From: Candidatus Zambryskibacteria bacterium RIFCSPHIGHO2_01_FULL_46_25 | GTDB taxonomy: Bacteria > Patescibacteriota > Minisyncoccia > Phycocordibacterales > Zambryskibacteraceae | Assembly (NCBI GenBank): GCA_001825155.1 | Contig: MHVH01000005.1 | Coordinates: 134,413-168,500 of the forward strand | Length of the DNA stretch: 34,088 bases | Direction of reading: 5' to 3' | Shown here: one piece after another, positions 3,324 through 34,088 of the stretch | How positions within the stretch are numbered: the first letter of the stretch is position 1 | Layout: every line of letters starts with the position of its first letter | Position numbers and translations under genes: made by a program | Notes under the pieces: model-generated | Seen by the model: only the letters and a program-made list of their open reading frames with translations | Databases searched by the model: none | What the model was told of the DNA's origin: nothing

Positions 3324-4799
3324 TTAACGAATGATGACCTGGCTCACATAGCCCAGATCGTGGTACCTCGGCAGCGACATGTCTTCGGCAAGAAGACCCG
3401 CGCTAGGCGGATTGGTAACCGTCCAGGTGTGAGATACGGACCCACCTGAGACGATGCGCCACTTGCCGTCGGTGCCGATGGTAATCACCTGGGCGGTGAT
3501 GTCAGCCGTGCCGGGGTAAACTCCGGTAATCACGGCGTTCTTGCCCGCGTAGTACCAGGTGCAGTTATTTCCCGATGCGTCGCAGATCTGGTAGACAGCA
3601 TCTGCGCCGAGAACCTTCAGCACCGAGGGCTTGTTGGTGCCCCAGATGACCTGGCAATTCGACGGCCAGGGGCTGATCGGGTTGAGCGACACCGTCGTGT
3701 TTCGGTTGACGTACGCCGTTCCGCCGGGCGGAGAGTAATTGATCCCCGTCGTTGGACAAGCCGGCTGCGATACGCACGCATCGAACTGGAGAGTAACCGT
3801 CTTGGTCTCCCCACCGCTCGTCACCGTCACCGAGGCAACACCGGCGGTATTGCCGGGCGAAACAGAGACCTGCTGGTTCTGCCCGGCAGGCAAGCTCGAC
3901 ACGGAGAGCGTCGCGTAGGTCGTGTTGACCGAGAGCGACACCGACTGGTTTGAGCTGACCGCGAAGGTTCGCGAACCTGTGGCCGTGCATCCCGCTCCAC
4001 CCAGTTGGAACTGGAGGAAGTTGGGGCTTACGGAGAGAGCAGGTGGTACCTGTGTCACCGTGAGCGTAGCGTTCCTGGTGACAGTCGCGCCGGCGTTGTT
4101 GGCGCAGACGATTGTGTACGACGTTATTGCCGCCGGACTGACCGACTGACTCCCGGTAAGCGGTTTGCTCCCGGTGAAGTCGGTTGCTCCCGATGCCACG
4201 ACACTCGTCGTGCCACCGGAATGACTCCAAACCAGCGTCGCATGCTGACCAACCTGAATGCTCGTCGGACTGACCGAGAGCGAACAGTTGGGAGCTGGTA
4301 TCGGTATCGGTGTTGGTGTGGGTGTCGGTCCTGGCGGAGTTGGCCCAGGTCCAGGAGGCGTCGGTCCAGGTGTTGGTCCGGGTGTCGGACCTCCGCCACA
4401 GTTCCCAATCGCCGTTACTGTAACTGAACCGGTCACATCCGCATTCTGCGTGGCCGCGGCAGTCACGATGTAGGTACCGACCGTATTAATCTCGAGCGTC
4501 GCCGCCGAGCCGGAGGACTTGAATTCTCCTCCTCCAACTTTCTCCCACGTCACCGTCTGGGTGACGCCCGCTCCGTACACGGTCGCCGTGAAAGCGATTG
4601 TGGCGGGACAGGCGTTGAGCGTGACCGTGAGAGCCGGCGTGGACACCGAGACCGCATCCACCTTGATTGTTGGCGGGCTTGGGGTCGGAGCTGTTGGCGA
4701 GGTGATGTTGTTGATCACGGTCGTCTTCTGCTTGTTGCAGGCCGACGACAATGACACGAGAACGAGACACACTGCGAAAACCTTCACAAATCGAGTCAT
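3324..4799 (-). CDS. secreted lipoprotein with Ig/BACON-like beta domains and a Pro/Thr/Gly linker
   Basis: Signal peptide with lipobox-like LSSAC; (PTPGP)n linker; CSLSVSPTSIQVGQHATLVWSHSG and ALSVSPNFLQFQLGGAGCTATGSRTF modules. Confidence 0.8.
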   Translation of the reverse strand: MTRFVKVFAVCLVLVSLSSACNKQKTTVINNITSPTAPTPSPPTIKVDAVSVSTPALTVTLNACPATIAFTATVYGAGVTQTVTWEKVGGGEFKSSGSAATLEINTVGTYIVTAAATQNADVTGSVTVTAIGNCGGGPTPGPTPGPTPPGPGPTPPGPTPTPTPIPIPAPNCSLSVSPTSIQVGQHATLVWSHSGGTTSVVASGATDFTGSKPLTGSQSVSPAAITSYTIVCANNAGATVTRNATLTVTQVPPALSVSPNFLQFQLGGAGCTATGSRTFAVSSNQSVSLSVNTTYATLSVSSLPAGQNQQVSVSPGNTAGVASVTVTSGGETKTVTLQFDACVSQPACPTTGINYSPPGGTAYVNRNTTVSLNPISPWPSNCQVIWGTNKPSVLKVLGADAVYQICDASGNNCTWYYAGKNAVITGVYPGTADITAQVITIGTDGKWRIVSGGSVSHTWTVTNPPSAGLLAEDMSLPRYHDLGYVSQVIIR

Positions 4800-4875
4800 A
4801 CCTCACCCCAATCTAACGAGTAAGAACAATTTTAGCCTAATCTAGGCCTTTCCTACCATAAAATGACGTTGTCTG

Positions 4876-5856
4876 TCAATTATACTTACAGAGAATCTCC
4901 ACCGCTTCTGTCGCACTCTCTGTCTCCATCAATTTACCCCTCAAATCTGCCGCCCCGTCAAATCCGCTTATGTACGCTTTGAAATGCTTTTTCATAATCG
5001 AAAAGTTTTTCACCCCGCCCAGAAGTTCATCGAAAAGCTTGATGTGCTCAACGAGAACAGCCAGCCGCTCCTCAATGCCAGGCCTTAAATCCTCATTCTC
5101 AAGGCCGGACCTTTTCCCGCGGCTAAACAACCACGGGTTGCCGAATATCGCCCGCCCGAGCATTACTCCGTCGCAGCCGGTCTCTTCCACTTTCTTTTTC
5201 GCATCATCAATATCTTTCACATCGCCGTTACCCAAAATCAGTGTGGGACACTGATTTTGATTTCTGATTTCAACCGCCCTTTTCACGAATTCCCAACGCG
5301 CGGGCACCTTGGACATCTCTTTCCTCGTCCGCGCGTGGATTGTTACGACAGCTGGATTTTCTTTGAGAATTTCCAGTAGCCAAGTTTCAAGTTCCGGCGA
5401 ATTCCATCCTATTCGCGTTTTTATAGAAATTGGGAGACTAGGAGCCCCTTCTTTTGCCGCTCTGATAAGTTCTCGGGCAAGCTTAGGATTCTTCATCAGA
5501 GCCGCACCGGCACCCTGCTTCTCGACACCCTTGTCCGGACAGCCCATGTTTATATCCACACCATCGAAACCGAGACTGGCTGCCAGTTGCGCAGCCAGTC
5601 TCATGTGCTCTGGACTGGAAGTGAAGAATTGCGCCACTATCGGTCTTTCGCTCTCCGAATACTTGAGGTCAAGCAATAATTTCCGCTTCCCTTCTTCCGG
5701 CGCCAAGGCAAGACCATCCGCTGAAACGAATTCCGTCCACATCACATCCGGTTTGCCATACTTGGCGATAATATGCCGAAAGGCCGCATCGGTAACATCC
5801 GCCATGGGCGCCAGTGCAAAAATAGGTTTATTTAGTTGTTGCCAAAAAGTTTCCAA
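4876..5856 (-). CDS. dus: tRNA-dihydrouridine synthase
   Basis: FALAPMADVTDAAFRHI, GVDINMGCPDKGVEKQGAGAALMKNP, VTIHARTRKEMSKVPA, ILGNGDV. Confidence 0.95.
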   Translation of the reverse strand: METFWQQLNKPIFALAPMADVTDAAFRHIIAKYGKPDVMWTEFVSADGLALAPEEGKRKLLLDLKYSESERPIVAQFFTSSPEHMRLAAQLAASLGFDGVDINMGCPDKGVEKQGAGAALMKNPKLARELIRAAKEGAPSLPISIKTRIGWNSPELETWLLEILKENPAVVTIHARTRKEMSKVPARWEFVKRAVEIRNQNQCPTLILGNGDVKDIDDAKKKVEETGCDGVMLGRAIFGNPWLFSRGKRSGLENEDLRPGIEERLAVLVEHIKLFDELLGGVKNFSIMKKHFKAYISGFDGAADLRGKLMETESATEAVEILCKYN

Positions 5857-6671
5857 AATATTTTGTTTTCTATTCGCAGGTCAAGCTCACTTAACTTATC
5901 CATCTCTATCGCCGGATTCTTGAGAAATGCCTCTAGATTGGAGTACAGAAAAGTGAGGTCGCCGTATGCGTTAAAGAGGATGAGCGTTCCGTTTCTTGTC
6001 ACAAGTTCAACATCGCGGTCCTTGATAGTGAGCGTCACGGGTTCAAACCCGAACTTCGAAAGCCCTTCTACGAATTGGGCTAGTGGAGAAAAATTTTCCA
6101 GCAGAAGAAATTGGCTGCCTTTCGGATTCTTTATCGGCGCATCTTTTTTATAAATAAAATAAACTACGCCGGAGAAATCCGGCGCCTCGTCGAAGATGAA
6201 TCCGGATTTGTCGAGGAAGAAGCATTTGTCGACGGATTCGACAAGCTCACCGCGAGCAAGCTCAGGGCAATACAGCGCGTATGGGTCTCGTTCGCTTACG
6301 CTTACGGCAAGCCGCTTCATGCCGTCAAGCGAGAGCGAAACGGAGCTTATGCGCGGAAATTCTTTCATCAAATTTTCTCTAACTGCCCGGCGCGGATAGA
6401 TGGCGGCATTGGTCCAAGGCACAAGCCATAAGTATCGGTCAGAGAGAGTTTCCTTAACGACACGCGCTATTTCTTCTTCCGGGACAACCTTGGCGCCTTC
6501 CGCCGCCACTTCCCTAATCTGCAACCTCTCGAGTCTTGAAATAATTACCAGAGCGATGAAAACGGCAAGGACGCCGGCGCTCCATGCAAGCACCTTACGC
6601 TTCTTCTCCTTCTTCTTCCTCTCATAATTCTCCGGCGAAAAAAGCGTCCTACCGGTCGAAATAATCTTCAT
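5832..6671 (-). CDS. ftsQ: FtsQ/DivIB-like cell-division protein (POTRA domain); start probably at internal MKIIST
   Basis: N-terminal TM then LQIREVAAEGAKVVPEEEIARVVKETLSDRYLWLVPWTNAAIYPRRAVRENLMKEFPRISSVSLS. Overlaps the dus 5' end by 25 nt. Confidence 0.75.
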   Translation of the reverse strand: MKIISTGRTLFSPENYERKKKEKKRKVLAWSAGVLAVFIALVIISRLERLQIREVAAEGAKVVPEEEIARVVKETLSDRYLWLVPWTNAAIYPRRAVRENLMKEFPRISSVSLSLDGMKRLAVSVSERDPYALYCPELARGELVESVDKCFFLDKSGFIFDEAPDFSGVVYFIYKKDAPIKNPKGSQFLLLENFSPLAQFVEGLSKFGFEPVTLTIKDRDVELVTRNGTLILFNAYGDLTFLYSNLEAFLKNPAIEMDKLSELDLRIENKIFWKLFGNN

Positions 6672-6775
6672 GGTGAAATTATACCAGACCCCCTCCCGCA
6701 CCCCATCATTGGCAGGGGGAAACTGTTCTAAAAAATCATATACGTTATATTTCTACACGTGTAAGTTTATAGCGT

Positions 6776-6813
6776 ATACATTATAAGCAAGCTATAGCAT
6801 CGTTATAATGTAT
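6776..6813. promoter_or_regulatory. nested dyad: ATACATTATAA-4-GCTATAGC-4-TTATAATGTAT, containing TATAAT on both strands
   Basis: 11-bp perfect arms around a central 8-bp palindrome; TATAAT at 6804-6809 (+) and its complement at 6780-6785. Confidence 0.5.
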
Positions 6814-6840
6814 TTGGTATTTGGAAAAATTGAGCAAACG

Positions 6841-6990
6841 AAAAGGCCGCATCGTGAGATGGGCCTTGAAGGAGCGAGGGTGGTCCAAAGGGTTATTTGG
6901 ACCATTGGGGCAGTCTGTCCCGCCCGGCATAAACGCGCGCCCGCATGAATTGGCGCAACCGCGGCTGTCGGACGACTCCACCCCAACTTT
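6841..6990 (+). ncRNA. candidate structured non-coding RNA (unknown family)
   Basis: Hairpin AAGGCC-G-CATC-GTGA-GATG-GGCCTT with GNRA loop; TGGTCCAAA-GGGTTA-TTTGGACCA; enclosing TTGGGG/CCCCAA, AGTC/GACT, GTCC/GGAC. No convincing protein in this interval. Confidence 0.5.
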
Positions 6991-7076
6991 TACCCTCTAT
7001 GTCTACCTTAGCATACTTCACTATATTTGTCAAGCACAAAATTGAGATTGTATGACTGAATATCTAAAATATGGCT

Positions 7077-8345
7077 CTACTTAGTTCTTATCTCCCTCAA
7101 GCCATTCATGTATGGGACCAATACTTCCGGAATTTTGACGGAGCCGTCGGCGGTTTGGAAATTTTCGACTAGAGAAACAAGGACCCGTGGTGTCGCGATA
7201 GCGGTATTGTTGAGCGAGTGGGCATACTGTGTGTTGCCGGTCTCGTCCTTGTAGCGAATATTGAGGCGGCGAGTTTGAAAATCATGGAAGTACGATGCTG
7301 AATGCGATTCGCGATAAGTATTTTCAAGCGGCACCCAAAGCTCGATGTCATACTTCTTGACCTGACCCTGACCGATGTCGGCTCCACAGTTTACAACCCG
7401 GCGATATGGGATATTGAGAGATTCTATAAACTCTTCAGCGTTTCGGGTCAACTCTTCGTGCTGCCTGACTGATTCTTCATGGCTCGCTTCGCAGATGACC
7501 AACTGTTCGAATTTGAAAAATTCATGGACGCGGATAAGTCCTTTCACATCCTTAGAATGTGCCCCGATTTCGCGACGGAAGCAAGGAGAGAAAGCGAGTA
7601 CTTTTTTCGGCAGATCTTGTTTGGGAATAATTTCGTTCTGGAAGAATCCCATCATTGCCACCTCTCCGGTACCAGCAAGATACTTGTCGTCTTGCACTTT
7701 ATAAAGGTCATCTTCACCCTGAGGGAGATAGCCTGTACCCATAAGAGGCTCACGCCTGACCATAGAAGGCGCGATATGGAGATCTAATCCCCGCGAGACG
7801 AAGAAATCTATCGCATAGCGCCAGATAGCAAAAGAGAGCATGGCTCCCGATCCTTTGAGGAAATATCCTCGAAAACCGGCCACCTTGGTGCCGCGCTCGA
7901 AGTCAGCCATACCAAGATCCGTCATAATCTCGATGTGATTTTTCGGTGTGAAATCAAACTTAGGAATCTCTCCCCACTTCTTAACCTCCTGATTATCCTG
8001 ATCAGACTCACCCTCAGGCACAGAGGCATCTGGGATGTTGGGAACCAAAAGCATGAGAAGTTGCCACTCTTTCATCACGCTCTTCAACCCATCTTCGTCG
8101 CGTTCAAGGTCCGCCTTCAAAATTTTCATCTTCTCAAGAATTTTCGCGCGCTCTTCGGAAGTCGCATTGACGATTTGATTACTTGCCACGTTCTGTTCGG
8201 CACGCTTCATTTCGACTCTCGAAAGTATCAAGCGACGCTGGTCGTCTACCTCTATAAGTTTCTCCACGTCGAACTCAATCCGTTTCTTCTCCGCGGCTTT
8301 CTTTATCACACCCTTGTTCTCCCTAATGAATTTAATATCAAGCAT
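7077..8345 (-). CDS. serS: seryl-tRNA synthetase
   Basis: MLDIKFIRENKGVIKKAAEKK..; class II motifs LAGTGEVAMMGFF, FSPCFRREIGAHSKDVKGLIRVHEFFKFEQ. Confidence 0.96.
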   Translation of the reverse strand: MLDIKFIRENKGVIKKAAEKKRIEFDVEKLIEVDDQRRLILSRVEMKRAEQNVASNQIVNATSEERAKILEKMKILKADLERDEDGLKSVMKEWQLLMLLVPNIPDASVPEGESDQDNQEVKKWGEIPKFDFTPKNHIEIMTDLGMADFERGTKVAGFRGYFLKGSGAMLSFAIWRYAIDFFVSRGLDLHIAPSMVRREPLMGTGYLPQGEDDLYKVQDDKYLAGTGEVAMMGFFQNEIIPKQDLPKKVLAFSPCFRREIGAHSKDVKGLIRVHEFFKFEQLVICEASHEESVRQHEELTRNAEEFIESLNIPYRRVVNCGADIGQGQVKKYDIELWVPLENTYRESHSASYFHDFQTRRLNIRYKDETGNTQYAHSLNNTAIATPRVLVSLVENFQTADGSVKIPEVLVPYMNGLREIRTK

Positions 8346-24529: not shown

Positions 24530-24530
24530 G

Positions 24531-24601
24531 TGCGAGATGGGAGAATCGAACTCCCGTCCGATGCTTGGGAAGCACCAGTTCTGCCACTAAACTAATCTCG
24601 C
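24531..24601 (-). tRNA. tRNA-Gly(CCC)
   Basis: RC GCGAGATTAGTTTAGTGGCAGAACTGGTGCTTCCCAAGCATCGGACGGGAGTTCGATTCTCCCATCTCGCA; anticodon CCC. Confidence 0.94.
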
Positions 24602-24836: not shown

Positions 24837-24957
24837 TTAACACTTCTCCTTGAATACGTCCTAAAATACCCTACTTCAGTGATGCAATTTAATCAAATGT
24901 GGCTCTATACGAGTCTGCTCGAACCTACTTTATCAAAAATTCTTGATTCTAACTAAC

Positions 24958-25629
24958 TCGCACGCCCTGCGGGCGTGCTCGTGCCTCTCGTCTTACAGAC
25001 GCCGTACACCTTTCGCACCTTCGGTGCTCAAGGCCCTTCGGAAGCGCACAGCGCTTCCTCAGCCTTTCCGCTATCAAACTTTCAGTGTTGGCGGTGATAA
25101 GACTTTTTTGAATGCATGCCCCGTAGCGAGCTTCGCTCTGCTACTGGGGGAATGAGCGGAAAGGGGCTCGGCTAGGAATACAAGATACTCGGTGCTCGGT
25201 CTGATTGTTTGTGGAGCGTCCGCGCCTAAAGCGGGTGCACCACTCGGCATCCGCCTCGGGCTGTTTCCGCTAGGGCTACGAGCGCCTAGATGCCTATGTG
25301 CGGGTAGTGAGCGAACGGCTCAAATACCAGTAAATGAGCCGTTCGCTCTACCCGCCTCTTTTTGGGGAGAGGAAAGGTTCCTCTCCCCAGCTTCGGGCTC
25401 CTCCTCGTTCCTTCGGAGTCCGCCCTCGCACAACCCCTCTCCTTGTTTTCATCTCTGTGTGAGTTGTGTCGCTACGCTTTCGTGTTTTGTGGCTTCGTTC
25501 GGGTCGGCGCTCGTCTTTAGTCACAGACGCCCTAGCGGTTCTCAGCCCGAGGCTCTTTAGTTTCTGTGCTTGCCCCACACCACCCGTGCGCGCACATTCT
25601 GCCGCGAGGTTAGTGAGGGGGCGGCAGAA
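24958..25629. ncRNA. candidate large structured RNA / hairpin-dense non-coding region (strand unresolved)
   Basis: Many perfect hairpins plus a nested long-range stem 25253-25263/25543-25553, 25267-25276/25529-25538, 25279-25286/25506-25513. Overlapping ORFs in this interval look spurious. Confidence 0.6.
25300..25355. repeat. strong hairpin GCGGGTA-gt-GAGCGAACGGCTCA..TGAGCCGTTCGCTC-TACCCGC
   Basis: 14-bp plus 7-bp perfect stems with a 2-nt bulge; core ACGGCTCA shared with palindromes at 26132 and 30364. Confidence 0.9.
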
Positions 25630-25634
25630 CTCCC

Positions 25635-26327
25635 TTACATTCGGGAATACGATACAGGTTTTCCGGTCCTTCCATTCTGTCTTACCTTTCCTCCTCTCTC
25701 TAGTTGCTCAAGGTATCTGGTAGCTGTTGCATCCGAGACATGCAGAAGCTTTTCTACATCATCATTAGTAATATTTGCTTGCTTCAAAAACATTCCCATT
25801 ATCTTTTCCAGTTTCTTGCGCTTTCGGAATTGTATAACTTCTCTGGCTTTTATCAGTAGTTCACGAGCCAAACTTGTTTGGATTACGGGCGGAGTTGAGA
25901 CTTGGGGTTGTGGCGCAGAAACAGGTTCGGGGGTAGGAGTGGGTGTTTCTTGCGGTGAGCTTGTCGAAGGGGTCGAAACCGGTTCGGGGATTGGTTCAGT
26001 AGGGGTTGGCGGTAGTTGCGCTGACTCTGGGGTAGGAGATGGCTCTATCGGTGCTATGTAGAGCTCTGGGACGGATTCCGGCACTTGGTTAGAGTCAGGT
26101 GCTGGTACGGGTGTAGGATTTGGCTCTGGGTCCAACGGCTCAACGGGTTGAGCCGTTGGGGTTTCCTCGACCACTGCCGGTTCTGTGATTGGTTCGGGTA
26201 CAGGCGGAGTTACTACTGCCGGTTCAGGTTGGATTGGTGCTGGTTCAAGTATTGCTTCGCCCGCCGAAGCCTCAGGCGTAGGCTGGGGCTCGCTTACAAC
26301 AGATTCAGTTGTAGTTTCTTCGGCCAT
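25635..26327 (-). CDS. Pro/Glu/Thr-rich disordered protein with C-terminal wHTH
   Basis: Long EPxP/PTP low-complexity region, then NITNDDVEKLLHVSDATATRYLEQLERGGKVRQNGRTGKPVSYSRM. Confidence 0.7.
   Translation of the reverse strand: MAEETTTESVVSEPQPTPEASAGEAILEPAPIQPEPAVVTPPVPEPITEPAVVEETPTAQPVEPLDPEPNPTPVPAPDSNQVPESVPELYIAPIEPSPTPESAQLPPTPTEPIPEPVSTPSTSSPQETPTPTPEPVSAPQPQVSTPPVIQTSLARELLIKAREVIQFRKRKKLEKIMGMFLKQANITNDDVEKLLHVSDATATRYLEQLERGGKVRQNGRTGKPVSYSRM
26132..26159. repeat. palindrome CCAACGGCTCAA-cggg-TTGAGCCGTTGG
   Basis: 12-bp perfect arms; inside the low-complexity coding region. Confidence 0.9.
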
Positions 26328-26614
26328 TAGACTCTTTCGTAACTCACATATCTGCCGGTTTTTCCAACTTGTCTTACTTTCCCTTCTTTTTCTAATTCAT
26401 CGAAGTATCTAGTAGCCGTGGCATCGGAAATACCGAGCATCGCTTCAACATCATTGTTGGTAAGCGGGTGGTTTGTTTCCAGAAGCTCAAAAATTGCTTG
26501 TTTATTCCGTTTCTTTTCTTCCTGTTGCTTAGAAATGAAGCCGACCTCCTGCTTTTTAGAAGCAACAAAATAACCGAGGAGAAAACCGATAATAAGTGTG
26601 ATTATGAAATACAT
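26327..26614 (-). CDS. membrane-anchored wHTH protein
   Basis: N-terminal TM (MYFIITLIIGFLLGYFVASKK) and wHTH NNDVEAMLGISDATATRYFDELEKEGKVRQVGKTGRYVSYERV. TAATG overlap with the next gene. Confidence 0.75.
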   Translation of the reverse strand: MYFIITLIIGFLLGYFVASKKQEVGFISKQQEEKKRNKQAIFELLETNHPLTNNDVEAMLGISDATATRYFDELEKEGKVRQVGKTGRYVSYERV

Positions 26615-26645: not shown

Positions 26646-27785
26646 CTAGTTTGATTGATATTGATTCTTTAATATCTCGCTAAGAATTTTAATTGATTTT
26701 TCGATATCACCATTATCTATCGAGGCAGTATCACCATGGTGGATAACATTTCTTATACACAGAGGAAGCAAAACATCTTTTCCAATTCCCAGATCCATCT
26801 TCTTTATAACTAAACCTTCGTTATTTAGAATTCGTATCATTTCATTTGATGTCTTTTCTATACCAGATTTACCCAGTCGCCACTTTTTACTTCCGCCCAT
26901 CTTTTCATGTACTTTGTTAAATAGTGCAATATGTAGGTTTTCGTCCGCAACATTACCAAAATCCGTCATGCCTTCTTCTGGTTTTTGAGTTTCATTGTTT
27001 ATTTTTTTGAAGGAATAGATTTTTATATCATCATTACCTAAGTTTGAATACAAAAAATAAGGATCGTGAGTTGAAACAATGATTGTTATCTTATCGTCCA
27101 CATCAATAATATCCTTTATTGCTTTGTTTATGTTTCTTTTAAGTTCTGGATGAAGAAAAATTTCTGGTTCCTCAAATAGGATTAATGTTTCTTTATTTGC
27201 TGCCTCGTCAGCTGGTCCATATTTTTTATAGAGATCCACATATGATTTTAAAATCGAAGCAATAAACATTCTTTGATATCCTTGACCAATTTGATTTATT
27301 TTTAAGTCTTTCTCTACCCCAGTTTCTTTAATTAGAAACTTGTTAAACAAGGACTGAATTATTGGTTCTATTTTGATAACGGTGCTTTCTAGATCGTTCT
27401 TAATCTCCATTTCGTCCTTAGAAGTGAATTGCTTAAAATTGTTATTTGTTTGCTTTACCAGAAATCCCAACTTCTCTTTAAGACCCCACTCGTCTTCAAT
27501 TTTTATAGGTATATTGAGATTATTAAATAGTTTTACTACATTACTAACCAATCCAGAGGTGGCCGCTGATTCCTTGAACTGATCATCTGAGGGATTTACA
27601 TCATTTGCTCTAATATATACAATTTCTACTTTTTCTGATTTATTGAACTGTTCCTCTATTGCTTCAAAAAATTTTGTTTTCCCGACATTATTTTGACCGA
27701 CTATTATATTTAGTCTCGCCATGTTTGGTAAACAAAAACCCTCTGGTATCGGCTGGTTAGCTTTTGTTATTTTAATTTCTTGCAT
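26646..27785 (-). CDS. AAA15/21 (OLD-like) ATPase with C-terminal HEPN-like motif
   Basis: Walker A GQNNVGKTKF; Walker B ETLILFEEPEIFLHPE; STHDPYFL; C-terminal LLPLCIRNVIHHGD. Confidence 0.8.
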   Translation of the reverse strand: MQEIKITKANQPIPEGFCLPNMARLNIIVGQNNVGKTKFFEAIEEQFNKSEKVEIVYIRANDVNPSDDQFKESAATSGLVSNVVKLFNNLNIPIKIEDEWGLKEKLGFLVKQTNNNFKQFTSKDEMEIKNDLESTVIKIEPIIQSLFNKFLIKETGVEKDLKINQIGQGYQRMFIASILKSYVDLYKKYGPADEAANKETLILFEEPEIFLHPELKRNINKAIKDIIDVDDKITIIVSTHDPYFLYSNLGNDDIKIYSFKKINNETQKPEEGMTDFGNVADENLHIALFNKVHEKMGGSKKWRLGKSGIEKTSNEMIRILNNEGLVIKKMDLGIGKDVLLPLCIRNVIHHGDTASIDNGDIEKSIKILSEILKNQYQSN

Positions 27786-27791
27786 GATGAT

Positions 27792-30272
27792 TTATTTTAG
27801 TAACTCATACTCAAACAGCTTCGGCTGAATAATATTTTCGTAGTATTTGGCTAATTTTGTCTTTAAACTAATGATTGTCGTATTCAGTTCCGGATAGTTG
27901 TAAATCCACTCGTCGTTTTCATTTTTATAACGAGAGTTAAGTTCCTCGTCGATCTGATACGTGCCATAAGTACATTTCTTGTCATAGTTCTTTGTGGATC
28001 TAGCTTTTGACAGCACCTCAGAAAAAGCGTCCAACAAATCCTGCTCTTCTTTGGTGAGTTTGTGCGATGTTATCTTACTGCTTGCTAACGTTCCTTTGTC
28101 AAAACAGAGTTCGTTTTTATAAAATCGGCCGTCACTGCCATCGAAGCTACGGCAATGATTACGCTGGCTCAAACAAGCAAATATAAAACAGCTTTTTAAG
28201 AAATCCTTGTCCTTAAGATAATGATCGCCTCCGTCAGCGGTTGTGAAATATACATCGCGCTCATACCAATTCTTTTGAGGATAGAGTTTTGCTGCAAATA
28301 ACGGTAACTTATCTACAAAATTATCTGATCGGAGATAGAAACCCTGAGATTTTTCTAAGCCATTGTATGTAATAGTTCTGGTCAGTGAATAACTGATAGG
28401 ATCTAAGTTATAGCTCGTAATCCTTAGGTGACCGACTATATTGTCATTGTATATTGCCTTGCGTGTAATTTTTTTATCCGACTCTATACCAGATAATTCA
28501 CATACAACTTCGGTTTTAATATCATTACTAAAAGTCCGTATATCTTTGTAAACCTGTTGCATCGGGCGATGTACCTTTCTAATTTCAATATTATGTAACT
28601 CAACCACCTCATCATCTTCTTGCTCTGGTGTTCTCTTTGTATCTATATCAAAAGCTTTGAGTGTTAGTTTCTCACGGCTATTGTCCATGTTCTGCCATAA
28701 AATACAACTAATAGCGCTAGGACCAGCATGGAAGAACTGGCGGTTAAATAAAAAGCCGTCAATAAATTTCTTTTCACCAAGACCGAGCGACTTCCAATAT
28801 TTTATCGGGCTAAACAATACAAAATAATCATCGGGTTTCGTGAGATAGTGTTTCCACCCTGACCAAATAAACAAATTTGCTAATTCTCGGTGGCTAGCTT
28901 CGTTTGTTCCTGCTTTCTTAAATTCTTCATAGACGAATGACTTGCTAGTATTTTGATTTTTTATCTTGGCAGCTTCATCTCGATACGGTGGATTTTCCAA
29001 CAGGATTATGTTTGTTTTCTTGTCCTTAATAAAGCCTGAAAGCATTGCGATGCTTTCGCTATACTCCTTAGTCATTCCGGTTGACTTTTGTCCCGTAACA
29101 AATTGAGAGCTCAGCGCATCACCACCTTCAACTAAAGCCTTCTTGTTACTAACTTCCTGTGGTGGTGGGATGATTAGCTTGACACGATCTCCAATGCGCT
29201 CGTATAGCACTATCCATTCCTTCAATTCATAAGTGTTAACAATAGTGTGCGACAACTCATTGTCAAAAATATAATTGCGTACCTTGATAGATGTTTCGTA
29301 TTTCTTTAATTCCGCCAGTGTAATCTCGTTTATTGTTTTTTTACTTCTCCCTAAAATCAAATCTACGCCATCGCCAACGCTAGAGATATATTCCTTCTTG
29401 AAACTCCTATCAACGTACTTACCTAATTCGCCAATTGTAATATCATCCACACTTTTATCAGTTAAAAACTCTTCTAGGTTGCCTGTACCGGCGCAGCGGT
29501 CAAGAATGATATAGTCATGGCCTTTCGGTATCTGCTTAATGGCCTTACGGACCAATTCTGTAGCTTTGAGACAATATGCTGGAGGAGTATAAAAAGCACC
29601 AAGTTCTTTTTTGTGCTGCTTATCATTAAGCAGGTCCATGATGTACTTGAAATCCCTTTCATCACCTGTCCACGGATAGATATAAGCAGCAAAATGTTTA
29701 GGGGCACGTAACTCCTTAAAAAGTTTAATTTTACTAGCAGTCGGATTTTCTAGATAAAACCGATTTGACCAACCGACAACATCGAATAAGTCAATATGAA
29801 TTTGGGTATATTTTTCTACATCTAGAATTTCTGTAATCCGTCGTAGGCCAGCTAAATTACTGTAATCAATCTTTTCTGATTGAAGGTTAGTCCCAAAATC
29901 AGCATTATCTTTGCTTGCTGCACCGGCATAGGGTATTTCTATATATGAAAGAAAATCTTGAGAATTAAACAAGTAAGCATTTTCTTCATTTAGTGCGACT
30001 AGTAAGATTTGCGCGGGTATAGGATCTCCTTTTACTCTTCGGTGACTGAGATATTTTATTGCCTGAAATAGCGCCTTATTAATGTCCGGGATAGTGAGTT
30101 TGAATTCGAATAAGGTACCTTTATATACCCCGTCAGTATTATGAGTTAGTTCCACGTCGGCATCTATCCTTAAATCAACAAAGAATTGTATCTGACCTTC
30201 ACGTTCAGATGAGAAATTCTTTTTTGGTTTAGTTAGTTTTTTTGCCATACTTTGTACTTCGCCCTTAGCCAT
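27792..30272 (-). CDS. single-chain restriction-modification-like protein (PD-(D/E)XK-like N-terminus, N6-adenine methyltransferase, target recognition C-terminus)
   Basis: NTDGVYKGTLFEFKL (nuclease-like), GAFYTPPAYCLKATELV, motif I DRCAGTGNLEEF, motif IV LLENPPYRDE. Confidence 0.8.
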   Translation of the reverse strand: MAKGEVQSMAKKLTKPKKNFSSEREGQIQFFVDLRIDADVELTHNTDGVYKGTLFEFKLTIPDINKALFQAIKYLSHRRVKGDPIPAQILLVALNEENAYLFNSQDFLSYIEIPYAGAASKDNADFGTNLQSEKIDYSNLAGLRRITEILDVEKYTQIHIDLFDVVGWSNRFYLENPTASKIKLFKELRAPKHFAAYIYPWTGDERDFKYIMDLLNDKQHKKELGAFYTPPAYCLKATELVRKAIKQIPKGHDYIILDRCAGTGNLEEFLTDKSVDDITIGELGKYVDRSFKKEYISSVGDGVDLILGRSKKTINEITLAELKKYETSIKVRNYIFDNELSHTIVNTYELKEWIVLYERIGDRVKLIIPPPQEVSNKKALVEGGDALSSQFVTGQKSTGMTKEYSESIAMLSGFIKDKKTNIILLENPPYRDEAAKIKNQNTSKSFVYEEFKKAGTNEASHRELANLFIWSGWKHYLTKPDDYFVLFSPIKYWKSLGLGEKKFIDGFLFNRQFFHAGPSAISCILWQNMDNSREKLTLKAFDIDTKRTPEQEDDEVVELHNIEIRKVHRPMQQVYKDIRTFSNDIKTEVVCELSGIESDKKITRKAIYNDNIVGHLRITSYNLDPISYSLTRTITYNGLEKSQGFYLRSDNFVDKLPLFAAKLYPQKNWYERDVYFTTADGGDHYLKDKDFLKSCFIFACLSQRNHCRSFDGSDGRFYKNELCFDKGTLASSKITSHKLTKEEQDLLDAFSEVLSKARSTKNYDKKCTYGTYQIDEELNSRYKNENDEWIYNYPELNTTIISLKTKLAKYYENIIQPKLFEYELLK

Positions 30273-30363
30273 CTTGACATTCTTAAATATTGCTTGCCTA
30301 TAAGAATGTTGCCGTTTCTTTATAATCCCACAGATTCCTCATTTTTGAAACTTACTGATTTAT

Positions 30364-30389
30364 CAACGGCTCAATGGATTGAGCCGTTG
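30364..30389. repeat. palindrome CAACGGCTCAA-tgga-TTGAGCCGTTG
   Basis: 11-bp perfect arms, intergenic; same family as 26132-26159. Confidence 0.9.
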
Positions 30390-30408
30390 GCAAAAAATCC
30401 CTTTTCTG

Positions 30409-31056
30409 CTACTTTACCTCTCCGAGATGAGCGTGATCATTCCAACCGAGTATATACCAACCAGATTCATGAAGTCCAAATGAGTGATCATATTGAATCA
30501 ACGTAATGCCGGTATTGTGCGGAACGAATGTTCTTTTTACTTCATCATAAATCTCAGGTGTTAGTTTATCTCCAAAGATAACCATCGCAAGAATCATTTT
30601 GAGTATTTCACCGTGGGTAACAACAAGTATGTTTTGCTCGCTACGTTTTGATAATAAATTCATAATCTTTCCAGCACGTTCTTTAATTTGAAAATAATCC
30701 TCTTCGTCGGAGTGTCTGTTGTGTGGATCGGTGAATGTGTCCTTCACCACTTTCATTATTGTTTTTACCTCCGGATCACTTTTATTTCGTCCACGCACCG
30801 CTGACGGCCTCTTTATTTCTTCAAATATAGGATCTTCGATTACCTTATGTCCAGTACGTTCAGCAATAGCTCGTGCCGTTTGAGATGCTCTTGTCATCGG
30901 GCTCGCAAATATCACGTCTACGGGTATGCTTTCAAATCTCTTGGCCATAAATTCTGCCTGTTCCTTTCCTTTTTCAGACAGTTCTATGGTTGGTAGCTGG
31001 AACTGATCAGACTCATTTCCATCAGTGCTTCCATGTCGAACAAAATAAATATTCAT
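30409..31056 (-). CDS. histidine phosphatase (phosphoglycerate mutase-like) family protein
   Basis: MNIYFVRHGSTDGNESDQFQL...FASPMTRASQTARAIAERTG...LVVTHGEILKMIL. Confidence 0.9.
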   Translation of the reverse strand: MNIYFVRHGSTDGNESDQFQLPTIELSEKGKEQAEFMAKRFESIPVDVIFASPMTRASQTARAIAERTGHKVIEDPIFEEIKRPSAVRGRNKSDPEVKTIMKVVKDTFTDPHNRHSDEEDYFQIKERAGKIMNLLSKRSEQNILVVTHGEILKMILAMVIFGDKLTPEIYDEVKRTFVPHNTGITLIQYDHSFGLHESGWYILGWNDHAHLGEVK

Positions 31057-31065
31057 GTGATTGGA

Positions 31066-31884
31066 TTATGTTATATCTGGTAAATCACCAACTTTTTGAT
31101 CTTTGAATGAAATGTTTGGGAAATCTCTCAAGGAATAATCGAATACAGCCTGGTTTTTATAATAAGAGTTCGGAAAAAGATTAACTTTCTTACCAAGCAA
31201 AGTTGCACAGATCGCTATATGCAACCTATCGGTATTTATCTCCTTATACTGCTTTAAAGAATTAATGAGTTCATCTAAAGGCTTAGTAGCATAGCCATTG
31301 TAAGAAAGATCATTATTGAAATTTGGAATATTGTCTAATACAGACTCCTTGTCTTTACGAAAGACATTTAATACTCCATTCCCTTCAGGAAATTTTGGAA
31401 AGATATTATAAAATGCACAATCATGCCATAGATAAACATCTCCTTTCAGAATGTTCCGCTTAACAAAATCAAAAGAAACTTTTTCCCGACAAAAAACAAT
31501 AGCATCGCCAGATAAATTATTTAATACCTCAATTTGCTTATCTCCAAAAATTGTATGAGGTAAAATAACAATTTCTCGGTATAAATTATGCTTCTTGATT
31601 AAGAAATCTCTTACGTCTGAGTAGTAATCAACAAAATTACCCCCGCCATCTATAAACAAGACGTCATTATTTTTTGGTGAATCTATTTCAACATAATTCT
31701 CGCTAATATTCAGTTCATTCAATAATATTTTGGTTCCATGCCAAATTAGTGAATCGCCGTAATTACCAGGGAAACGGTAAAAATCTACTGCCTTACCCCG
31801 ATATTTCTCTAAAAGATCTTTTAAATCAAGCTCTTCCATCGAGTAAGCATGCGCTAAAAATGCGAGTTTAACAAGGACTATCAT
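31066..31884 (-). CDS. polysaccharide pyruvyl transferase family protein (start may be internal)
   Basis: GNYGDSLIWHGTKILL, DVLFIDGGGNFVDYYSDVRDFLIKKH, IVILPHTIFGD, DRLHIAICATLLGKKVNLFPNSYYKNQAVFDYSL. Confidence 0.85.
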   Translation of the reverse strand: MIVLVKLAFLAHAYSMEELDLKDLLEKYRGKAVDFYRFPGNYGDSLIWHGTKILLNELNISENYVEIDSPKNNDVLFIDGGGNFVDYYSDVRDFLIKKHNLYREIVILPHTIFGDKQIEVLNNLSGDAIVFCREKVSFDFVKRNILKGDVYLWHDCAFYNIFPKFPEGNGVLNVFRKDKESVLDNIPNFNNDLSYNGYATKPLDELINSLKQYKEINTDRLHIAICATLLGKKVNLFPNSYYKNQAVFDYSLRDFPNISFKDQKVGDLPDIT

Positions 31885-31904
31885 TTACATGTTATTATTG
31901 CAAT

Positions 31905-32645
31905 ATGAATGTAGTCTTCTGTGCTGACGGGACTTATCTAGCACTTCTACCCACTGTATTAAACTCAATATCTGCTTCTAATGATGCGAGTAAAATGCGA
32001 TTCCACTTGCTTCACAATATTGAAGACGATGAGTTGATAGAAAAATTTAATATATATATTAGAGAAAGGTTCAAAACTGAATTGTTATCATATTTCGTAC
32101 CTAAAAGATTTAAGTACGATAACAACCTAAATCATGTTACAGATGCCACCATGTTACGTCTTTTGATTCCCAATGTCATCGATGCGCAAGGGAAAATACT
32201 GTATCTAGATGCGGATATTATTGTAAATACTAATTTAAGTAGATTATTAACAATCAATCTCAGTGAAAAAGGATTCGGCGGTAAGACATCTCTACATAGC
32301 GGAGTCGTTAAAGATATGACTTTTGGAAATATAAAGCCCACTTACAAAACTCTAAACGCCGGTGTTCTGATTATGGATTTGGACATTCTAAGAAAAGACA
32401 AATTCACAGAAAAGTGCTTGGCTCTTCTGGACAAATACCCATATAACGACCAAGTGATTATCAACTTATACCTAGAAGGAGACTACTCAGAACTTCCTAA
32501 GCAATATAATATCTTTAACACTCAAGATGATGAGCTCTTGCTTGAACACAAGGAATACATATTACACTACGTGGGCGCGTATAAACCATGGAATCATGAG
32601 GTACCAAATGCGGTCATATGGAAGAGATTTGAAATTCTTGCCTGA
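31905..32645 (+). CDS. glycosyltransferase family 8
   Basis: VVFCADGTYLALLPTVLNSI, ATMLRLLIPNVIDAQGKILYLDADIIVNTNLSRL, LNAGVLIMDLDILRKDK, HYVGAYKPW. Confidence 0.9.
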   Translation: MNVVFCADGTYLALLPTVLNSISASNDASKMRFHLLHNIEDDELIEKFNIYIRERFKTELLSYFVPKRFKYDNNLNHVTDATMLRLLIPNVIDAQGKILYLDADIIVNTNLSRLLTINLSEKGFGGKTSLHSGVVKDMTFGNIKPTYKTLNAGVLIMDLDILRKDKFTEKCLALLDKYPYNDQVIINLYLEGDYSELPKQYNIFNTQDDELLLEHKEYILHYVGAYKPWNHEVPNAVIWKRFEILA

Positions 32646-32648
32646 AAA

Positions 32649-33407
32649 TTATCTCTTTTCTATTACAGCAATGCCATCACAAGATTTTGTTATATCTGGG
32701 TTATTCAAGCTATCAAATATAAATATGTTCTTTATACCCTCCTCAATTATTCGTCTCTCTTCTTCCGAAGCAAGCGTTGAAAGCCATAATCCAGTCCTTT
32801 TAAATTCACGCAGAATGTCAATAGTTTTCGGATTTTTTTCATCCTCATACTCGCTTGGTTGCCAGTGAAGATCCTCAATGATAAATAAGCCGCCAGATTT
32901 TAAGTATTTAAATAAGTAATTAAATGTTATTTGCTGGTGTTTTGAGGCATGAAGTGCATCATCGATGATGACATCCAGATCCTTTTCTATTTCAATGATT
33001 TTTTTCAGATCTTCCCGCTTGCTTTGGTCTCCCTGGACAATCACTATTTGAGAATCTGTTGGGGGTAAAAAATGGCAAATATCGAATCCGATAATTTTTG
33101 CATTAGGAAGATACTGCCGCCACATATTGAGTGATGGTGTTGTTTTACGAATTTGAGTCTCGTCAGTTTGGTGCCGGATATATAAAAGGCCAATTTCACA
33201 CAATGTTTTGATGGTATGACGACGTTCGTTAAGAAAAAAATCATAAATACGAACGTAACCGTGCCCTGAATTTGCCTTATCAGTTCCCGTCCTGATAGCA
33301 AGACCTATTAGCCTGTTACTGCGATATTGTTTGAAGTTATATTTAAAATACTCACAAATAGATTTGAATTCTTGGAATATACCTATAATTTTACGTCTCC
33401 AGTTCAT
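32649..33407 (-). CDS. class I SAM methyltransferase (sugar/macrocin O-methyltransferase-like)
   Basis: TGTDKANSGHGYVRIYDFFL, SLNMWRQYLPNAKIIGFDI, LDVIIDDALHASKHQQITFNYLFKYLKSGGLFIIEDLHW. Confidence 0.8.
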   Translation of the reverse strand: MNWRRKIIGIFQEFKSICEYFKYNFKQYRSNRLIGLAIRTGTDKANSGHGYVRIYDFFLNERRHTIKTLCEIGLLYIRHQTDETQIRKTTPSLNMWRQYLPNAKIIGFDICHFLPPTDSQIVIVQGDQSKREDLKKIIEIEKDLDVIIDDALHASKHQQITFNYLFKYLKSGGLFIIEDLHWQPSEYEDEKNPKTIDILREFKRTGLWLSTLASEEERRIIEEGIKNIFIFDSLNNPDITKSCDGIAVIEKR

Positions 33408-33430
33408 GTACAGTGGTTAAAATTAGATTT

Positions 33431-34088
33431 TTAGCTAGTTTGTAGTTTGCAAACAATAATTTTTGGTCTTAGGTAACCACCTACATTCGTCGGCAATTTT
33501 AACTGTAATGACTGAAAAATTTTAAAGCGAGATTTACGCAAAATAGATTCAATAATTTCGTACTCACTTGTATATACCCCTAATGTGCCATTAGGAAGTA
33601 ATTTTTCTTCACAGTATTCAATAAAGGTCCTATACAATGTTTCCAGGTCCTCATTCTTTGATACAACCATACCAAATGGCAAATCAGAAGTAATAGCATC
33701 AAATCGACCTAGATCTGGTTTATCAAATATATCTGCCTCCTTAAGTCGCGCTTTCTGTATTAAGCCAGCCTCTTTCACATTTTGTATTGCCAAAGAAAGG
33801 TGCTTTTTATTATTATCAAAACCAACAATTTCTTTTAACTTTGGATAACACAGACCCGCTTCTATAAGCAGGGTTGCGCTTCCAGAAAAAATATTTAGGT
33901 ATGACTCAGCTCTTTCCAGTTCACATAATGAATTGAGTGCATAAGCAATTGTAGGATCCATAGCACCACTCATATGCCTTACTTTATAGTTTCTTAAGGA
34001 TAGGGGCCTGGGTGTGCTTTGAATGCCGACTTCCCACTCATCCTCTATTTTTATAATATGAATTTTTAGATCAGATTCCTCTGTTTCA
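33431..34088 (-). CDS. THUMP/Trm14-Trm11-type RNA methyltransferase, partial (5' end beyond window)
   Basis: Frame stays open upstream of ORF-track M33973 to the edge: ETEESDLKIHIIKIEDEWEVGIQSTPRPLSLRNYKVRHMSGAMDPTIAYALNSLC..; NIFSGSATLLIEAG and ITSDLPFG motifs. Confidence 0.75.
   Translation of the reverse strand, partial: ETEESDLKIHIIKIEDEWEVGIQSTPRPLSLRNYKVRHMSGAMDPTIAYALNSLCELERAESYLNIFSGSATLLIEAGLCYPKLKEIVGFDNNKKHLSLAIQNVKEAGLIQKARLKEADIFDKPDLGRFDAITSDLPFGMVVSKNEDLETLYRTFIEYCEEKLLPNGTLGVYTSEYEIIESILRKSRFKIFQSLQLKLPTNVGGYLRPKIIVCKLQTS

Follow-up and report, generated by a model that had tools for sequence, protein, structure and literature searches.

A structured non-coding region at the probable left terminus of a tRNA-targeting serine-recombinase island in Candidatus Zambryskibacteria

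In a 34 088 nt stretch of contig MHVH01000005.1 of Candidatus Zambryskibacteria bacterium RIFCSPHIGHO2_01_FULL_46_25 (the window), a hairpin-rich region extends from about position 24899 to 25634. This region is very probably the structured, non-coding left terminus of an integrated, tRNA-targeting, cargo-carrying serine-recombinase island. An initial annotation of the window had placed the region at 24958–25629 and proposed a stand-alone large structured RNA; the region itself is real, but these limits were too narrow, and a terminal inverted repeat (IR-L; Table 1) makes up its left third. Coordinates are positions in the window unless given as positions on contig C5 or within a locus (L numbers).

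From left to right, the proposed arrangement would comprise the chromosome, a short attachment (att) core, IR-L, a structured core of about 460 bp, a leftward-transcribed cargo operon, the right inverted repeat (IR-R), a second att core, a recombinase unit and the 3' end of a tRNA gene. Two repeat-bounded units would therefore lie in tandem at the tRNA, the recombinase unit beside it and the cargo unit next.

Repeat-bounded units and a serine recombinase at tRNA genes

An inverted copy of IR-L is present beyond the window at C5:173617-173832 (216 bp, 99.5 % identity, 14 kb apart). In all, this organization is seen in 17 of 23 assembled loci, in which the left end is found again, inverted, 3.7–14.3 kb to the right, with 76–100 % and often 98–100 % identity; the cargo repeats are 84–383 bp long. 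Most of the genomes are metagenome assemblies, but one single-contig genome (G097) has repeats of 247 bp that are 100 % identical and lie 10 kb apart. The left ends of different elements are only about 81 % identical to each other. Within an element, IR-L and IR-R match up to the short core, after which the outward sequences diverge. Copies of the structured core are often near contig ends; assemblies may break at such places because the repeats are long and nearly identical.

In 14 of the 17 repeat-bounded units, a gene for a large serine recombinase (Resolvase, Recombinase and zinc ribbon) begins no more than 1.9 kb past IR-R. In 12 of the 14, this gene and a tRNA gene overlap at their 3' ends, and in at least eight loci the recombinase unit has inverted repeats of its own. 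In each of the 14, the structured core is at the end farther from the recombinase. The NCBIfam profiles closest to the recombinase include CcrB, CcrA and XisF, all below their cut-offs. In the host locus L034, the interval from the far repeat to the recombinase holds a reverse transcriptase gene (5929-7185; RVT_1, group II maturase-like), which scores below the cut-offs of the named antiviral reverse transcriptase families.

The left boundary was placed by comparison with a congener, G014, in which the element was not detected and in which a zinc-ribbon gene and tRNA-Gly adjoin tRNA-Leu(tag). Synteny with this empty site ends at 24902, at the 3' end of tRNA-Leu. The suggestion in the initial annotation of an oriT (origin of transfer)- or att-like role at the DNA level was thus well aimed, the left boundary being a recombination boundary. 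No target-site duplications were found between the left end and the constant CTCCC at the right of the structured core, and CTCCC, considered as the element end, turned out not to be one. Beyond the island, the host has a cluster of tRNA-Leu(taa), Cys, Lys and Leu(tag), inverted relative to its far neighbour.

From this anatomy, the recombinase most likely acts on the short att cores at the ends of both units; by joining them, it would place the units in tandem at tRNA 3' ends, and could in this way move the cargo unit. IR-L and IR-R would supply end sequences that it needs. Several points weigh against such an island. The inversion of the host tRNA cluster relative to G014 means that a simple insertion is complicated by rearrangement, and neither an excised circle nor transfer has been observed. 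Six of the 23 loci lack the repeat pair (some of these are short contigs or partial assemblies), and three repeat-bounded units (G154, G244 and G318) have no serine recombinase on the right flank that was fetched. Furthermore, loci were selected by presence of the structured core, so that repeat-bounded units devoid of it would be missed.

Two further observations concern the ends. The motif GGTTCGAGC, near the repeat ends of both units in L034, L214, L223 and others, resembles a tRNA T-loop, and its distance to the att core is roughly similar to that of the T-loop; the island ends may mimic the tRNA target. A decayed small unit is present at C5:118067-120927 (L033), with 80 bp inverted repeats 2.8 kb apart; its core is mostly deleted, and it contains a shortened gene related to the winged-helix gene described below.

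Table 1. Features of the left end of the island and its surroundings in the window
Feature	Position	Strand	Description and basis
tRNA-Gly	24530..24601	-	Chromosome left of the island; ARAGORN, Rfam; synteny with G014
Left outer boundary, putative att core	24898..24902		CCAC on the - strand, derived from tRNA-Leu 3' end
IR-L	24899..25114	+	Hairpin-rich; left one of the inverted repeats that bound the cargo unit
Left-end motif GTTCGAGC	24904..24950	-	Conserved, with -10-like hexamer; alignment of 24 left ends
Repeat stem	25063-25072/25155-25164		CCTTTCCGCT with AGCGGAAAGG; equivalent stems of different sequence in other copies
Palindromic insertion	25115..25149		Absent from other copies, in which its flanks (query 157 and 192) are adjacent
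Structured core	25171..25634	Uncertain; - favoured if RNA	From IR-L to the stop codon of the last cargo ORF; homologues, covariation, G-U/A-C test
Long-range stem set	25253..25553		25253-25263/25543-25553, 25267-25276/25529-25538, 25279-25286/25506-25513; supported by covariation
Hairpin with dispersed palindrome	25300..25355		AACGGCTCA..TGAGCCGTT; six places in own genome
Covarying hairpin	25363..25389		TGGGGAGAGGAA/TTCCTCTCCCCA
Right-end hairpin	25597..25634		Followed by constant CTCCC (25630-25634)
Last cargo ORF (open reading frame)	25635..26327	-	Winged-helix protein, Pro-rich N-terminus; stop codon abuts core
Cargo ORF	26327..26614	-	Membrane-anchored winged-helix protein (HTH_24)
Further low-GC cargo	26646..34088	-	AAA_15 ATPase, 826-aa protein, PS_pyruv_trans, methyltransferases; runs on to C5:173.8 kb

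Fold, conservation and strand of the structured core

The density of stems remarked upon in the initial annotation is matched by a fold energy far lower than that of dinucleotide shuffles, with z scores of -11.2 (+ strand) and -10.1 (- strand) for 24958-25640. The inverted-repeat and core parts are each significant when tested separately (z -5.5 to -8.6), and z stays at about -6 when the hairpin at 25300-25355 is removed; neighbouring DNA in the same test is not significant (z -2.2 to +1.8). All of the stems originally named lie where they were placed, and most are perfect, namely those at 24960-24978, 25015-25027, 25040-25058, 25364-25388 and 25597-25629, together with the repeat stem and the long-range stem set of Table 1. 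Those at 25119-25149 and 25300-25355, however, are imperfect and require bulges. These two also count against a stand-alone large RNA: the former is part of an insertion missing elsewhere and the latter holds a dispersed genomic palindrome. The initial annotation recognized no known class, and an Rfam search at the gathering score and at E values up to 10 yielded nothing convincing; seven homologous loci likewise matched no Rfam family. A 122-aa ORF at 25192-25560, checked for coding potential, has no Pfam match.

Of 399 genomes of the order (Candidate Phyla Radiation, Paceibacteria), 66 match the core at E < 1e-6; at a loose threshold, the region matches 46 of 61 relatives, many of these matches being short. 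The core is rare elsewhere, with matches in six of 389 genomes across the phylum, five of the six within the order. Named records are mostly Zambryskibacteria, Kaiserbacteria, Nomurabacteria, Taylorbacteria, Adlerbacteria, Vogelbacteria and Yonathbacteria. A search of viral contigs with the conserved core pattern gave no matches.

Collection of these homologues revealed a conserved, covarying structure. In a 57-copy alignment, covariation in local hairpins is significant against a tree-based null. In an independent 32-copy alignment, 14 pairs are changed on both sides, a count reached by none of 500 shuffles, and slid controls give 2–10 such pairs; a long-range stem noted at the outset is among the helices supported. 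The tree-based null and the strand test described below were custom-written; the count on the 32-copy alignment is independent of both.

At pairs common to the folds of both strands, the + strand has 100 G-U and 165 A-C cells, compared with 79 and 20 in RNase P of the same order. Counted as events on the tree, the + strand has 49 G-U and 78 A-C (RNase P, 34 and 11). Since there is no G-U excess on the + strand, a + strand RNA, as had initially been envisaged, is unlikely. The fold most likely works either as an RNA in the 3' untranslated region (UTR) of a - strand transcript or as a structure at the DNA level; other roles share the small probability that is left.

It is a little short of evenly probable that the core is a structured - strand RNA, read with or after the cargo operon as a 3' UTR or a processed non-coding RNA, with a fold selected as RNA. 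Such a 3' UTR would end and insulate the cargo transcript. The core always follows the last cargo gene and shares its direction, the helices covary, and on the - strand the same tree events read as 78 G-U and 49 A-C. This excess of wobble pairs is weak, however, at 1.6 to 1 compared with 3 to 1 for RNase P counted in the same way; moreover, the two strands fold equally well, and there is no terminator-like site at the core end on the - strand.

These equal folds, together with the position beside a terminal inverted repeat, are what might be expected of hairpins formed by single-stranded or supercoiled DNA at the element end, with a role in recombination or end protection. This is a realistic possibility, only slightly less probable than the RNA. 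The stems are near-perfect in Watson–Crick pairing with hardly any G-U (in the hairpin at 25363-25389, 601 Watson–Crick, five G-U and six A-C cells); template-switch mutation also favours perfect palindromes. Hairpins in DNA do not readily account for the fixed orientation relative to the cargo or for the slight - strand wobble excess, and the core is at the left end only, hence is not generally required at both ends. In either form, an action in cis is most likely for the core, which lies 3' of the final stop codon of the cargo.

It appears unlikely that the core has a more specific role and works with the serine recombinase or in the capture of cargo, as a structured RNA or single-stranded DNA needed for mobilization of the cargo unit. 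If it did, the island would be a cassette system in which a large serine recombinase is assisted by a nucleic acid. A guide function resembling that of bridge RNAs was considered and rejected, as exact substring matches of the core to its own target equalled those to swapped targets in seven elements.

An improbable reading of the whole unit is that the repeats flank an invertible, phase-variable segment flipped by the neighbouring recombinase. Such a switch would fit inverted repeats that are long, nearly identical and next to a serine recombinase, but genomes differ in their cargo and a congener has the empty site; the core, moreover, is recombinase-distal in every unit that has a recombinase, which makes free inversion of the cargo unlikely. 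The free-standing + strand non-coding RNA gene first proposed has the strong fold and the covariation in its favour, yet is very improbable, given the A-C surplus on that strand, the inverted repeat of a mobile unit that forms its left third and the lack of a convincing + strand promoter. The left end was assessed as such a promoter and rejected as not convincing; the motif GTTCGAGC within it, with a promoter score weakly above the control, is possibly an outward promoter or a recombinase site. A cluster of repetitive extragenic palindromic (REP)-like sequences with no common function can be virtually dismissed: the genome has five matches to Y1_Tnp, and at least two hairpins are dispersed or inserted palindromes, but an origin from REPs and their associated transposases was rejected as accounting for those two hairpins only, the fold is significant even without the dispersed hairpin, and the collinear, covarying homologues across many families of the order largely refute it.

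Cargo and its orientation

The cargo between the repeats differs between genomes and includes restriction-modification genes, AAA ATPases, reverse transcriptases and glycosyltransferases, gene calls being simple ORFs. Among cargo genes of at least 100 aa, 83 are directed toward the core and 19 away from it. In 46 of 53 loci, the gene on the right points into the core, while the left-hand gene shows no bias in orientation; the adjoining cargo gene often stops 0–10 nt from the constant CTCCC. GC content is higher in the left than in the right flank in 25 of 28 loci, and in the window it drops from about 0.5 to 0.31–0.42 past the element.

A winged-helix gene adjoins the element in 13 of 45 loci, and many of its strongest relatives found elsewhere are also beside an element. 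The palindrome AACGGCTCA..TGAGCCGTT of the core hairpin, at 25314-25343, has another copy at 26133-26156; one copy is in frame within the winged-helix cargo gene and reads PVEPLDP, much like Rickettsia palindromic elements.

At 26646-30272, an AAA_15/OLD-like ATPase lies beside the 826-aa protein, which lacks a Pfam match. By eye, the latter resembles a restriction-methylation enzyme, and the two are possibly defence cargo. Other cargo units with reverse transcriptases are L215 (2802-4289), L040 and L125. Locus L215 also encodes, at 4397-5965, a protein that combines a LexA-like DNA-binding domain with S24 peptidase and C5 cytosine DNA methylase domains; within this cargo unit, a tRNA gene (2238-2309) separates the structured core from the cargo. 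In eight loci, the cargo unit contains a small ORF with an XRE-type helix–turn–helix, recognized by eye; seven of the eight are on the - strand near the far repeat.

Relation to known elements

In the staphylococcal cassette chromosome (SCC), ccr serine recombinases insert variable cargo at the 3' end of a chromosomal gene. The island resembles it in its large serine recombinase, its insertion at a gene 3' end and its variable cargo. SCC, however, inserts at the 3' end of rlmH (orfX) and has the ccr genes inside, whereas the island targets tRNAs, and its recombinase occupies a separate unit, bounded by other repeats, beyond those of the cargo; the length of the cargo repeats and the structured region at one end are further differences. 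GOLLD, ROOL, OLE and HEARO are large RNA classes linked in part to mobile DNA. The core is similarly large, covarying, GC-rich and non-coding, but it matches no Rfam family, is part of an element terminus and may act as either RNA or DNA. Tycheposons have tyrosine integrases.

Like the island, tRNA islands of the Islander database (PMC4383910) and tycheposons (PMC10872708) are small, carry cargo and integrate at tRNA 3' ends; islands of the Islander type are described with tyrosine integrases (PMC4383910). The large serine recombinase, the long inverted repeats and the structured core set the present island apart from both. IS110 and IS1111 elements, with their bridge RNA or seekRNA (PMC11208158, PMC11187229), are likewise mobilized by a recombinase and have a structured non-coding region near one end, but they use a DEDD transposase rather than a serine recombinase, and the core has no guide-like match to its own target.

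A paper on gene exchange in Patescibacteria (PMC12455944) makes no mention of recombinase, integrase or tRNA. Literature searches, which were incomplete in coverage and are no proof of absence, found no description of such an element. Islands targeted to tRNAs and cassettes with serine recombinases are already known; what is apparently undescribed is an island that targets tRNAs, has long cargo repeats and a conserved structured region, and keeps its repeat-bounded recombinase outside the cargo unit. The exchange of accessory and defence genes in the very small genomes of Paceibacteria is poorly known, and the island family addresses this. It constitutes an element family that can be searched for by sequence, with defined ends, target, recombinase and cargo, together with a new conserved non-coding structure.
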